DNA of 64,000 nt, taken from positions 124,001 through 188,000 of the forward strand of contig NZ_CP071868.1 of NCBI RefSeq assembly GCF_017569225.1. The letters run 5' to 3'. Positions 53,597 to 59,885 of this stretch are shown piece after piece; position 1 is the stretch's first letter; each line of letters starts with the position of its first letter. Origin of the DNA: Pengzhenrongella sicca. GTDB taxonomy: Bacteria > Actinomycetota > Actinomycetes > Actinomycetales > Cellulomonadaceae. The notes beneath the pieces were generated by a model that saw only the letters and a list, made by a program, of their open reading frames with translations, was not told the DNA's origin and searched no databases. The position numbers and the translations under genes were made by a program.

Positions 53597-54619
<1,023 letters not shown>

Positions 54620-54722: not shown

Positions 54723-55166
54723 TCAGCCGACCTGGGGCGTCGTTCCGTCGGGCACCGTCATGTCGGAGCCCGGGTCGCCGTCGTCGAGGTCGAGCAGCTC
54801 GCCGATGCGGGTGACCTCGAGCAGGAACCGGACCGTCGGGGGGACCCGGATGACGCGGACGCGCGCCGGGCTCCGGGTCGAGAGCCGGGCGAGGAACGCG
54901 ACGCCGGACGAGTCCATGAACGTCACGTGATGGCAGTCGACCTCGATCGGCAGGCGCGCGCGCTCCGCCTCGGCCGTCGCCTCCTGCAGGTCCGGGGCGA
55001 CGTCGGCGTCGATGTCGCCGGACAGGACGATGCGCGTACGCTCGGATCCAACGAGGACGTGGACCGACCCGGGATCGGTGACCGGGCTGGACGACGCGGT
55101 GGTCGTCTCGAGCGCGCTATCGGAATCGGCGGGCCCGCCGCTCGTCGGGCTGTTAGCGTCTCGCAC
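54723..55166 (-). CDS. STAS-domain anti-sigma factor antagonist
   Basis: A 147-residue protein with an N-terminal Ser/Thr/Ala-rich stretch (about 35 residues) and a STAS domain. Its core VDCHHVTFMDSSGVAFLARL contains the DSSG loop whose first serine is phosphorylated by the anti-sigma kinase and dephosphorylated by a PP2C partner. GTG 55166 has AAGGAG 4 bp upstream. It diverges from the LOV-like/PP2C/HATPase fusion and is probably one of its substrates. Confidence 0.85.
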   Translation of the reverse strand: MRDANSPTSGGPADSDSALETTTASSSPVTDPGSVHVLVGSERTRIVLSGDIDADVAPDLQEATAEAERARLPIEVDCHHVTFMDSSGVAFLARLSTRSPARVRVIRVPPTVRFLLEVTRIGELLDLDDGDPGSDMTVPDGTTPQVG

Positions 55167-55265
55167 GATGCTCCTTCTCACGGGCAGTCCAGGGTCTCCG
55201 GCGGCCGACGGATCGCGGCCGCCCGGAGGTCCAGCTCGCACGCTAGACGATCGGAGCCGCTCTTG

Positions 55266-57437
55266 GTGAACTTGGGGTCGGGCGACGACTGGCCGCAGGC
55301 GCTGGGCGAGGTGCGGGACAGGGCGCTGCGCGCCACGGATGTGTCCTTCGTCATCACCGACGCCGCCGACCCGGACACCCCGATCGTCTGGGTGAACGAC
55401 GCGTTCACCCGCACCACCGGCTACACGTCGGCCGAGGTCATCGGCCGCAACCCCGCGCTGCTGCGGGGTCCGGCCACCGACCGGGCGGTGACGGCCGAGC
55501 TCAACGAGGCGCTCGCGCAGGAGCGCGCCGGCTCGGCGACCGTCCTGAACTACCGCAAGGACGGCGAGCCGTTCTGGAACCAGGTGTCCGTCGCACCGGT
55601 GCGGGACGCGGCCGGCACCGTGACCCACTGGGTCGGGGTGCAGGTGGACGTCACGAGCCAGATCGAACGCCAGGCGGCGCAGATCGCGGCCGTCCAGCTC
55701 GAGCGGCGCGCGCGCACCGGGCTCGCCATCGTGGCCCGCGTCTCCGAGCTGCTCACGGACCTCGACGACCCCCTGGCGCTGCGCAACGTCGCCGCCCTGC
55801 TGGCCAGCGACGTCGTCGCGTGGGCGGGCTTCTTCCTCGACGACGGCGGCCTGCGCGCCGCCGACGGCGTCGACCTGTCCGCCGTCCCCCGCGGCCGGCC
55901 CCGCCGGCACGGGCCGCCGCCGGCCGCGCGAAGGGCCGCCGACCGGGCCGGCGACGGCGGCGCGGCCGCCGACGATGCGGCCGCCGACGATGCGGCCGCC
56001 GACGCTGCGCCCGACCCGGTGCAGCAGCTGCTCGACGGGGTCCTCGACGGCGTGCTCGAGCTCGACGTCGACGCCGAGCACCCCGACTGCTCGGCGTCGG
56101 GGTGGCTGAGCGCGCGGCTGCGTCCGGTGCTCGCGCAGCTGCCCGGGGCCCCGACGGTCGCCGTGGTCGTCCCGGTCGGCGGCCGGCGGCGGGTCCTCGG
56201 GGTGCTCGTGGCGGTGCCGCTGGCCGGGTCCGCCGGGCCCGCGGGGCTGGACGGGCTCGACGAGAACGCCCACACGGTGCTCTACCTGACCGCGCGCCGG
56301 GTGGGCATGGCCGTCGACAACGTGCGGCTCTACGCCCGCGAGCACCAGCTCGCGGAGACCCTGCAGCGGGCGATGCTGCCCGAGCAGGCCGAGATCGACG
56401 GACTCGACGTCTGGACGTACTACGCGCCGAACTCCGAGCACGCCCAGATCGGCGGCGACTGGTACGACGTGCTGCAGATCTCGCCCGACGTCGTCGGCGT
56501 GGTGATCGGCGACGTCGTCGGGCACGACGTCGAGGCGGCCGCCGCGATGGGCCAGCTGCGGTCGGTGGTGCGCGCGTACACGTTCGAGATCGAGACGCCG
56601 GGGCCCGTCCTGGACCGGGTCGACCAGCTCGTGGCCGGCATGCGGATCCCGCGGTCGGCGAGCCTCGTGCTCGCCACCCTGACCCGGGCCGCCGGCGGCT
56701 GGGGGCTCGAGTACTCCCGGGCCGGGCACCTGCCCGCGCTGCTCGTGCGGGCCGGCGAGGTCAGCCAGCTCGCGGGCGCGTCCGGGTCGCTCATCGGGTT
56801 CGGGTCGAGCCCGCGCGCGACCGCCCGCGCGGACCTGCGCCCCGGCGACGTGCTCGTGCTCTACACGGACGGCCTCATCGAGCGCCGCGACCGCCCGCTG
56901 CGCGAGGGGCTCGACGCGCTCGTCGCCGCGTGCGGCGAGGTCACGGCGATCGACTCGGCCGGGGTGGGGGAGGACCTGCTCTCGCGGCTGGCCGACGCGC
57001 CGGAGGACGACGTCGCGCTCGTCGTCGTCCGCCTGCCGGACCCGCTGTCCGACGGCGACAGCCCGCGGCACAGCCCGCGGCGGCGGCGCTGGCTGCTGCC
57101 CGGCGAGCCGGTGTCGATCGGGCGGGCGCGGCACGCGGTGCTCCGCACCTGCCGGGCCTGGCAGCTCGACGAGGTCGCGAGCGCGGAGCTCGTCGTCTCG
57201 GAGCTCGTGGCCAACGCTGTGCTGCACGGCTGGGGGCAGATCTCGCTCGGGCTGTTCGACACCGGCGACGGGCTCCGGATCGAGGTCGAGGACTCCAACC
57301 CGGCGCCGCCGGTCACGACGGATGGGCACGCCGGCCGGATCGGCGGGTACGGGATGCAGATCGTCGAGCGCCTGGCCGACTGGGGCTGGCGTCCCACCCG
57401 TCGCGGCAAGCTGGTCTGGGCCCGCCTCCGGTCCTGA
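55266..57437 (+). CDS. LOV-like PAS - GAF - PP2C (SpoIIE) - HATPase fusion
   Basis: A 723-residue signalling protein. Residues about 25-135 are a PAS domain of LOV type (TGYTSAEVIGRN, NYRKDGEPFWN at 95-105, VGVQVDVTSQ). The photoactive cysteine position of GRNC is Pro63. A GAF-like region (about 160-360) contains a 15-bp-repeat-encoded Ala/Asp linker near residues 235-250. The PP2C/SpoIIE domain (about 370-595) has QIGGDWYDV, IGDVVGHDVEAAAAM, LYTDGLIERR and DDVALVVV metal-binding motifs. The C-terminal HATPase (about 620-723) has ELVANAVLHG and GYGMQIVERL. It both dephosphorylates and phosphorylates STAS antagonists. GTG 55266 has GGAG 9 bp upstream. Confidence 0.88.
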   Translation: MNLGSGDDWPQALGEVRDRALRATDVSFVITDAADPDTPIVWVNDAFTRTTGYTSAEVIGRNPALLRGPATDRAVTAELNEALAQERAGSATVLNYRKDGEPFWNQVSVAPVRDAAGTVTHWVGVQVDVTSQIERQAAQIAAVQLERRARTGLAIVARVSELLTDLDDPLALRNVAALLASDVVAWAGFFLDDGGLRAADGVDLSAVPRGRPRRHGPPPAARRAADRAGDGGAAADDAAADDAAADAAPDPVQQLLDGVLDGVLELDVDAEHPDCSASGWLSARLRPVLAQLPGAPTVAVVVPVGGRRRVLGVLVAVPLAGSAGPAGLDGLDENAHTVLYLTARRVGMAVDNVRLYAREHQLAETLQRAMLPEQAEIDGLDVWTYYAPNSEHAQIGGDWYDVLQISPDVVGVVIGDVVGHDVEAAAAMGQLRSVVRAYTFEIETPGPVLDRVDQLVAGMRIPRSASLVLATLTRAAGGWGLEYSRAGHLPALLVRAGEVSQLAGASGSLIGFGSSPRATARADLRPGDVLVLYTDGLIERRDRPLREGLDALVAACGEVTAIDSAGVGEDLLSRLADAPEDDVALVVVRLPDPLSDGDSPRHSPRRRRWLLPGEPVSIGRARHAVLRTCRAWQLDEVASAELVVSELVANAVLHGWGQISLGLFDTGDGLRIEVEDSNPAPPVTTDGHAGRIGGYGMQIVERLADWGWRPTRRGKLVWARLRS

Positions 57438-57450
57438 GGGGCCTGGCGAG

Positions 57451-57819
57451 CTAGCTCGTCCGGCCCGGCCGATCCGCGCGCGTCGCGGCCTCGACGTCGG
57501 GCGGCGGGCAGCGGTGGGCGGTGTCGATCCGGAAGAGCTCGAGCGCGCCGCAGACCTCGAGCACGAACAGGTCGCGCGGGTCTGGCCCGCGCAGCACGGT
57601 CGCGCCGCCGCGGCGGCGCGAGGAGTCGGCCAGCGAGATCAGGAACGCGGCGCCGGTGGAGTCCATGAACGTCACCGCGCACATGTCGATCACCAGGAGC
57701 TGGCGGCGCAGGCCGGTGATGCGGGCCGTGATCTCGGGGAACTGGTCCCTCTCGGCGAGGTCGAGGTCGCCGCCGATGGTGAGCGTCGTCGTCGCCGACG
57801 ACATCGAGAGCTCGATCAT
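57451..57819 (-). CDS. STAS-domain anti-sigma factor antagonist
   Basis: A 122-residue STAS protein with the phosphoacceptor loop VTFMDSTGAAFLISLA near residue 55; the acceptor is probably the Ser of DST. The C-terminus has about 25 extra residues. It is convergent with the phosphatase/kinase fusion gene (14 bp apart). Together with the STAS gene at 54723-55166 it forms a partner-switching cluster; no sigma factor is encoded in the window. Confidence 0.85.
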   Translation of the reverse strand: MIELSMSSATTTLTIGGDLDLAERDQFPEITARITGLRRQLLVIDMCAVTFMDSTGAAFLISLADSSRRRGGATVLRGPDPRDLFVLEVCGALELFRIDTAHRCPPPDVEAATRADRPGRTS

Positions 57820-58598: not shown

Positions 58599-59885
58599 AT
58601 GCCAGCCGTCGTGGTCATCGGAGCCCAGTGGGGCGACGAAGGCAAGGGCAAGGCGACCGACCAGCTCGGTGCGCTCGCGGACTATGTCGTGAAGTTCAAC
58701 GGCGGGAACAACGCGGGCCACACGGTGGTCCTCGGCAGCGAGAAGTACGCGCTGCACCTGCTGCCGTCGGGCATCCTCAGCCCGGGCGTCACCCCGGTCA
58801 TCGGCAATGGCGTCGTGATCGACCTCGAGGTGCTGTTCTCCGAGCTCGACGCGCTGACCGCGCGCGGCGTCGACGTCAGCCGGCTGCTCGTCTCGAGCGA
58901 GGCCCACCTCATCGCCGGCTACAACCGGACCATCGACAAGGTGACCGAGCGCTTCCTCGGCAGCCGCAAGATCGGCACGACCGGCCGCGGCATCGGCCCG
59001 ACCTACGCCGACAAGATCAGCCGGACCGGCGTGCGCGTGCAGGACCTGTTCGACGAGAACATCCTGCGGCAGAAGGTCGAGGGCGCGCTCGAGCAGAAGA
59101 ACCACCTGCTGATCAAGGTGTTCAACCGCCGCGCCATCACGGTCGACGAGACGGTCACCGAGCTCCTCGCGTTCGCCGAGCGCCTGCGGCCGATGGTCGC
59201 CGACACGTCGCTCGTGCTCAACCGCGCGCTCGACGCCGGCAAGACCGTCGTGTTCGAGGGCGGCCAGGCGACCATGCTCGACGTCGACCACGGCACCTAC
59301 CCGTTCGTCACCTCCTCCAGCGCGACGGCCGGCGGGGCCTGCACCGGCTCGGGCGTCGGGCCGACGCGCATCGACCGGGTCATCGGCGTCATCAAGGCGT
59401 ACACGACCCGCGTCGGCGAGGGCCCGTTCCCGACGGAGCTGCTTGACGACATGGGCGAGCGCCTGCGCCAGCACGGCGGCGAGTTCGGCACGACCACGGG
59501 CCGCCCCCGCCGCTGCGGCTGGTACGACGCCGTCGTCGCGCGGTACTCGGGCCGGGTCAACGGGCTCACGGACCTCGTGCTGACCAAGCTCGACGTGCTC
59601 ACGGGCCTGCCGAAGATCCCCGTCTGCGTCGCGTACGACGTCGACGGCGTGCGGCACGACGAGATGCCGACGGACCAGAGCGACTTCCACCACGCCGTGC
59701 CGATCCTCGAGGAGTACGACGGCTGGACCGAGGACATCACGGCCTGCCGCACGTTCGAGGAGCTACCGGCCACCGCGCAGGCGTACATCCTCGCGCTCGA
59801 GGCGATGAGCGGGACGCGGATCTCCGCGATCGGCGTCGGCCCGGACCGCGAGGCGACGATCATGCGCCACGCCCTGGTGGGCTGA
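58599..59885 (+). CDS. purA: Adenylosuccinate synthetase
   Basis: A 428-residue enzyme that joins IMP and aspartate with GTP in AMP synthesis. The N-terminal [18 protein letters not shown] is the P-loop-like signature with catalytic Asp; [12 protein letters not shown] holds the catalytic His; [17 protein letters not shown] is the IMP-binding segment; and [16 protein letters not shown] ends the GTP region. Full family length. The only upstream purines are weak as a ribosome site. Confidence 0.97.

Follow-up and report, generated by a model that had tools for sequence, protein, structure and literature searches.

A LOV-type sensor without its photoactive cysteine on a phosphatase/kinase fusion of Pengzhenrongella sicca, and its canonical, proline-bearing and eroded orthologues

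The window, i.e. the whole stretch of DNA analysed here, covers 64,000 nucleotides of the genome of Pengzhenrongella sicca. It contains a sensor gene flanked by two STAS genes, and the neighbourhood is anchored by two further genes that we take to encode class II fructose-bisphosphate aldolase (fba-like) and adenylosuccinate synthase (purA-like). In window coordinates the features are:

53597..54619, forward strand: fba-like gene, left anchor of the neighbourhood (open reading frame)
54723..55181, reverse strand: STAS1, anti-sigma-factor-antagonist type, divergent from the sensor gene, MDSSG motif (STAS_2, 1e-16)
55266..57437, forward strand: whole sensor gene, 723 amino acids, with LOV-like PAS, helix, GAF-like region, helix, PP2C and HATPase (translation, Pfam, AlphaFold2)
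55347..55661, forward strand: LOV-like PAS domain, residues 28-132 (PAS_9, LOV chains in the PDB, Foldseek)
55452..55454, forward strand: Pro63 codon (CCC), aligned with the adduct-forming cysteine of Cys orthologues and paralogues
55653..55757, forward strand: predicted signalling helix, residues 130-164, 35 residues (AlphaFold2)
55776..56255, forward strand: GAF-like region, residues about 171-330 (AlphaFold2 secondary structure; sub-threshold GAF in orthologues)
56262..56372, forward strand: predicted long linker helix into the phosphatase, residues 333-369, 37 residues (AlphaFold2)
56487..57035, forward strand: SpoIIE-type PP2C phosphatase domain, residues 408-590, fold from about 378 (Pfam, structure matches)
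57099..57383, forward strand: RsbW-type HATPase_c_2 domain, residues 612-706 (Pfam, 3ke6 alignment)
57451..57819, reverse strand: STAS2, anti-sigma-factor-antagonist type, convergent with the sensor gene, MDSTG motif (STAS, 4e-14)
58599..59885, forward strand: purA-like gene, right anchor of the neighbourhood (open reading frame)

Translation confirms the coordinates and the frame of the sensor gene, from a GTG start at 55266 to a stop ending at 57437. In Pfam, PAS_9 covers residues 28-130 (1.3e-19), and both output domains score above their cut-offs, SpoIIE with 123 bits against 25 (1.4e-35) and HATPase_c_2 with 35.3 bits against 27.4 (1.3e-8). The presence of phosphatase and kinase domains on one chain, claimed in the initial annotation, is thus borne out, although the arrangement is already known from Rv1364c. 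The full-length AlphaFold2 model was built from an alignment of 17 sequences (mean pLDDT 79, pTM 0.49), and a model of the PAS alone has a mean pLDDT of 82. Residues 171-330 give no Pfam GAF match in this protein, and two of the four orthologues tried (L030, L105) give sub-threshold ones. We call the region GAF-like mainly from its predicted fold, which includes an Ala/Asp-rich stretch of low confidence (210-246) and which the full-length structure comparison hardly probes.

The gene order fba, STAS1, sensor gene, STAS2, purA is conserved. A scan of named genomes gave 364 stretches with a relative, and the best 80 were taken for neighbourhood counts, presence being a match with E <= 1e-4 inside the fetched stretch, so that short contigs score as misses. 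STAS1 was found in 78 of these 80 loci, STAS2 in 80, purA in 78, fba in 75, and a further gene, presumably RNA-methyltransferase-like, in 61. Gene order and strand were read from the loci listed, a subset of the best 80; STAS2 is reversed in nine listed rows of the Isoptericola group. STAS2 is also 67-87% identical in most listed rows, above the identity of the sensor. The two flanking STAS genes were rightly recognised by the initial annotation. Each has a D-S-S/T-G motif, and this motif recurs among the 92 loci looked at: STAS1 has it in all 90 matched loci, and STAS2 has D-S-x-G in 86 of 87, where x is T in 82, A in three and S in one (one locus was unread). Two records with other organism names, L037 (Proteobacteria MAG BP9.bin99) and L043 (Sphaerisporangium cinnabarinum ATCC 31213), hold a Cellulomonas/Cellulosimicrobium-type locus, and L043 is more than 97% identical to the Cellulosimicrobium funkei copy L041; both are probably cases of mislabelling or contamination.

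The motif residues of the output half are invariant among the 17 orthologues. In the PP2C domain these are D398, D401, D416, D581 and D582, which we take to be the metal-binding aspartates, and in the HATPase domain E646, N650, D676, G694 and G696, presumably the N-box and G-box residues. When tested, the predicted assignments as a SpoIIE/RsbU-type PP2C and, by domain and N-box/G-box, as an RsbW-type serine kinase both held, phosphorylation of the STAS proteins being putative. A PDB sequence search with the output half gives a single match at E <= 0.01, namely 3ke6, the RsbU and RsbW domains of Rv1364c. It is also the best structural match of model residues 368-722 (Z 28.8, 27% identity), with an rmsd of 13.6 that spans two domains; 6k4e matches the PP2C model with Z 24.5. 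A review attributes both kinase and phosphatase activity to Rv1364c, and cites a paper on this protein that is titled 'Loss of kinase activity' (PMC9138534), so the kinase half should not be taken for granted here. The 'stress' label that the initial annotation gave to this output is not supported. The best match of the genome to the SigB/F/G-type sigma factor model TIGR02980 reaches 133 bits, under the curated cut-off of 234, and the genome combines STAS, PP2C and HATPase proteins with no such sigma factor over the cut-off. Three of 29 genomes reach the cut-off, but none of the 19 that belong to the window's family, where G017 comes nearest at 214.

The PAS domain belongs to the LOV branch, as its nearest relatives in sequence and in fold are LOV domains. 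The top PDB sequence matches to residues 1-137 (best 60 of 161) are LOV domains, the best three with E values of 8e-33 to 1e-32, and all 50 Foldseek entries listed for the PAS model (best 50 of 552 with E <= 0.001) are LOVs. Among the matches listed, the best Foldseek match is 9vf7 (TM 0.80/0.86) and the nearest solved relatives are Chloroflexus flavin-binding fluorescent proteins and one Meiothermus LOV. One non-LOV PAS, mouse EAG1 (4hoi), comes close to the LOVs on the model, with Z 20.1 versus about 20-22. The NCBIfam models YtvA_fam (8.7e-35, residues 19-138) and BluLightHisKinLov (6.9e-36) match the PAS far better than the generic sensory_box (7.9e-17), with scores below their curated whole-protein cut-offs (120 of 250 and 124 of 450 bits, respectively).

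The domain has Pro63 instead of the adduct cysteine of the GxNCRFLQ motif. The initial annotation had placed this proline exactly at the LOV cysteine site, and it does align with the cysteine of six orthologues and nine paralogues. As the cysteine is gone, the translated protein could undergo no flavin-cysteinyl photocycle. Of the ring-side residues, all three of N94, N104 and Q123 (YtvA numbers) are present, as N95, N105 and Q126, and we assume that N94 and N104 hold the flavin ring. In YtvA the ribityl and phosphate contacts of FMN are N61, R63, Q66 and R79 (PMC3836802), and Q123 acts at flavin N5 (PMC9098866). N61 alone is kept from that set, the other three positions having A, R and N (R79 corresponding to N80). 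Hence, the initial annotation correctly listed GRN, NYRKDG, FWN and GVQVDVT, but the claim that nearly the whole flavin-site pattern is kept was overstated, R63, F64, Q66 and R79 being lost. The survey of natural cysteine-less LOV* domains by Yee et al. (2015) demanded no cysteine and at least nine of ten other conserved residues, nine of which are named in its Methods (PMC4682037). The window domain fails this filter, with six of the nine named residues (G59, N61, L65, N94, N104, Q123) kept and three changed (R63 to A, F64 to L, Q66 to R); residues 2-140 lack both cysteine and methionine. Loss of R63 and R79 need not abolish flavin binding, because the FMN phosphate contributes no binding energy in YtvA, where KD is 351 nM for riboflavin and 715 nM for FMN (PMC3836802). 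All in all, it is about an even bet that the domain still binds flavin.

The canonical N-C-R-F-L-Q is present in six orthologues (L030, L119, L120, L122, L123, L124), which come from four other families of the order. All six neighbour fba and STAS1, five neighbour purA, and three have STAS2 at threshold; the contig of the sixth stops about 270 bases beyond the match, leaving purA out of reach. One of them, L122, is a natural LOV without the active-site Gln, with VAALSDVT in place of VGVQxDVT. We built a tree of 95 rows from PP2C and HATPase (IQ-TREE in quick mode, rooted on L119/L120, several rows being long); 29 of the 124 rows stayed outside it, as near-copies (26) or truncated (3). On this output-domain tree the Cys/non-Cys state requires three changes: one before the 86-row clade holding the window (SH-aLRT 99), one in L033 and one in L127/L128. 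We read these as at least three losses of the cysteine, a reading in which root and direction depend on the choice of outgroup and on a regain of the motif being improbable. L113, the one of 74 rows labelled with C by the automatic alignment, was not counted as Cys because the stretch, GCVDVF, is not LOV-like. As traced in these sequences, a canonical blue-light LOV at this locus, with the ancestral cysteine, gave rise to the sensor, and the tree places the loss of the cysteine, old and clade-wide, before the spread of the lineage that includes the window's family.

Of 59 genomes sampled, a number that includes the window's own, 47 contain at least one match at E <= 0.001. In the window's genus, four of five genomes match at 1e-90, with Pro in the window, G001 and G004 and Val in G003; G002 does not match at that level. 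The G001 copy and that of Cellulomonas fimi strain SB (L035) share more than 97% identity. The conservation of Pro63, which the initial annotation had singled out as a check, therefore has two sides: proline is common to many orthologues, but six have the cysteine. If Pro63 were a recent local mutation or a sequencing error of one strain, the ancestral cysteine would be expected, and nothing else speaks for this idea. Fifteen rows of the clade have Pro, including named Cellulomonas and Actinotalea species, which rules it out.

Paralogues provide a control within genomes. Nine of ten further LOV-phosphatase paralogues picked from the matches are canonical N-C-R-F-L-Q (L144-L149, L151-L153), in nine genomes, seven of them in the window's family. 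The tenth, L150, lacks the motif, so the cysteine has been lost in a paralogue too. Three genomes encode both a Pro orthologue and a Cys paralogue (L010/L144 in G011, L012/L146 in G019 and L013/L145 in G035), and the ring trio N94, N104 and Q123 is intact in the Pro orthologues of G011 and G035. Hence, the loss concerns this locus and not the capacity of those organisms for LOV chemistry. In the window's own genome no Cys LOV was seen among three matches. The second of these matches, L130, lies outside the window and by eye has a PAS-PAS-PAS-GGDEF-type layout; its first PAS is 45% identical to the window PAS and shows a LOV-like motif in which Pro takes the place of the cysteine.

The two sides of the flavin site fare differently in the proline-bearing rows. 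The Cellulomonas/Actinotalea clade has 25 rows (support 80, which is weak), and the 15 with Pro keep N94 in 14, N104 in 13, Q123 in 13 and N61 in ten, having mostly lost R63, Q66 and R79 (two rows each keep them; Q66 is His in nine). The 15 Cys LOVs, i.e. six orthologues and nine paralogues, have N94 and N104 in 15, Q123 in 14, N61, R63 and Q66 in 15 and R79 in 12. The 74 remaining rows keep N94 in two, N104 in five and Q123 in 20. In terms of ring contacts, this amounts to 40 of 45 cells in the Pro rows versus 27 of 222 in the 74 rows, counts that must be interpreted with care since rows are related and cells non-independent. Likewise, F103, T71 and D72 are present in 15 of 15 Pro rows versus 6, 14 and 29 of 74. 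These differences, across a Pro subtree of 6.56 changes per site, weigh against an alternative to which we give just under even odds, namely that flavin was lost altogether and that the domain is an ordinary PAS which responds to a different small ligand, to a protein partner or to no signal at all. N94, N104 and Q123 would then be LOV leftovers on the way to the eroded state of Cellulosimicrobium, Oerskovia, Isoptericola and Promicromonospora.

Yet, several observations favour this flavin-free alternative. In the window the cysteine, R63, Q66 and R79 are all gone. Within the Pro subtree N94, N104 and Q123 undergo one, two and two changes, numbers equalled or beaten by 44, 59 and 59 of 116 PAS sites, so by parsimony their rate is average for the domain and an excess of purifying selection on them is not shown by parsimony over these sites. 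R63 undergoes ten changes, and 115 of the 116 sites change as often or less, a single site being more changeable. By these counts the phosphate clamp has clearly been released, the ring side being retained to the same extent as the domain at large. The module does without the ring trio, since 13 of the clade's 25 rows lack all or some of it, and the eroded relatives retain the invariant PP2C and HATPase residues and the STAS neighbours, as expected if it works without a flavin site. Nor is Pro at the cysteine site a mark of flavin: outside the clade 24 of 64 rows have it too (those listed lack the ring trio), as does the PAS-GGDEF protein of the window's own genome.

NG86 estimates, with up to eight non-independent pairs listed per group, give PAS dN/dS below 1 in every pair listed, eroded clades included. 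Some function thus still maintains even the PAS domains that lack the motif, which suits the flavin-free alternative. Among the eight closest Pro pairs listed (one a near-copy of another), the ratio of PAS dN to PP2C dN ranges over 0.9-1.7. For Cys pairs it is 0.8 and 2.0 in two within-family pairs and 0.9-1.1 in four cross-family ones. In the pairs listed for other groups it is 2.0-8.5 (Cellulosimicrobium), 4.6-9.6 (Isoptericola), 2.2-4.4 (Sanguibacter), 1.6-2.8 (Oerskovia), 0.4-10.7 (Promicromonospora) and 1.3-1.6 (three Ser-Ala rows). A relaxation of the PAS in the eroded clades is not clear-cut in these pairs, as ranges of PAS dN/dS overlap and the ratio rises partly from slower PP2C.

The domain might also have remained a blue-light sensor without adduct, in which a nearby Trp or Tyr reduces the photoexcited flavin to the neutral semiquinone and Q126 reads the protonation of N5. 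This has been shown for cysteine-free variants of VVD and YF1 (PMC4682037), and the Pro rows keep Q126 in 13 and D128 in 15 of 15. We regard it as very unlikely, however, because flavin binding is needed first and the closest natural counterpart, the halobacterial BAT-LOV*, undergoes photoreduction almost 100 times more slowly than a VVD variant and responds readily to chemical reductants (PMC4682037). Moreover, nine genomes have Cys LOV-phosphatase paralogues, so that relatives need not use the Pro protein for light.

Our preferred reading, to which we assign a probability of roughly 0.45, is that the domain would still hold the flavin ring, perhaps as riboflavin or loosely bound FMN, and that the redox state of the flavin would be reported through Q126. 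BAT-LOV*, with Pro at the cysteine site and no Cys or Met, shows modest flavin content, loads FAD, FMN or riboflavin, and shifts conformation upon flavin reduction (PMC4682037). Against flavin binding speaks the ribityl contact Q66, which is Arg in the window and His in nine of 15 Pro rows. The protein probably serves as phosphatase/kinase, with its own sensor, in an apparent partner-switching module that would act on STAS1 and STAS2. The signal could pass from the helix 130-164 through the GAF-like region to the helix 333-369, helical linkers from sensor to PP2C having been proposed as a general signal route in such phosphatases (PMC12143880). It would then set dephosphorylation of the STAS serines by PP2C against their phosphorylation by HATPase, activities that we infer from the known families. 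One might speculate further that we see a photoreceptor changing job, one lineage without phosphate clamp having kept the ring site as a sensor of redox state or riboflavin level and its sister lineages having erased the site, but we consider this scenario rather doubtful.

The closest known systems share parts of this picture. Natural cysteine-less LOV* domains have been described (Yee et al. 2015, PMC4682037), above all BAT-LOV*, which resembles the window domain in its Pro, in lacking Cys and Met, in keeping the active-site Gln and in belonging to a multidomain signalling protein; the window domain differs in lacking R63, F64, Q66 and R79, in its PP2C/HATPase output and in its flavin binding being putative. 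Canonical actinobacterial LOV-SpoIIE phosphatases (the nine Cys paralogues and six Cys orthologues) have the same sensor family and PP2C output, and the orthologues share the fba/STAS1 neighbourhood, but unlike the window protein they have the cysteine and nearly all ribityl and phosphate residues. Rv1364c of Mycobacterium tuberculosis (3ke6) also carries PAS, PP2C and RsbW-type domains on one chain. In Rv1364c, however, a STAS domain is fused to them and the target is sigma F, whereas the STAS proteins of the window are separate genes and its genome has no SigB/F-type sigma factor over the cut-off; in the portion of the review consulted the PAS of Rv1364c is not termed LOV (PMC9138534). As for YtvA and the blue-light histidine kinase LOVs, YtvA_fam matches the window PAS, which lacks the cysteine and stays below the whole-protein cut-offs. 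Cysteine-less LOVs, with Pro included, and the phosphatase/kinase fusion are thus already in print. As far as literature searches show, the syntenic erosion series and the Pro state with ring side kept and phosphate clamp lost are new. The locus was not found in the LOV literature searched, and the supplementary list of about 70 LOV* of Yee et al. may hold a close relative. One LOV survey used a search pattern ending in the cysteine (PMC4844311), and was therefore blind to cysteine-less LOV domains.

Yee et al. proposed redox-active flavoproteins as the ancestors of LOV photoreceptors (PMC4682037). At the locus studied here the course runs the other way: orthologues that are canonical, that bear Pro or that are eroded all occupy the same conserved neighbourhood. 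Since some genomes pair a Pro orthologue with a Cys paralogue, the fate of LOV domains after loss of the cysteine becomes testable with matched pairs.
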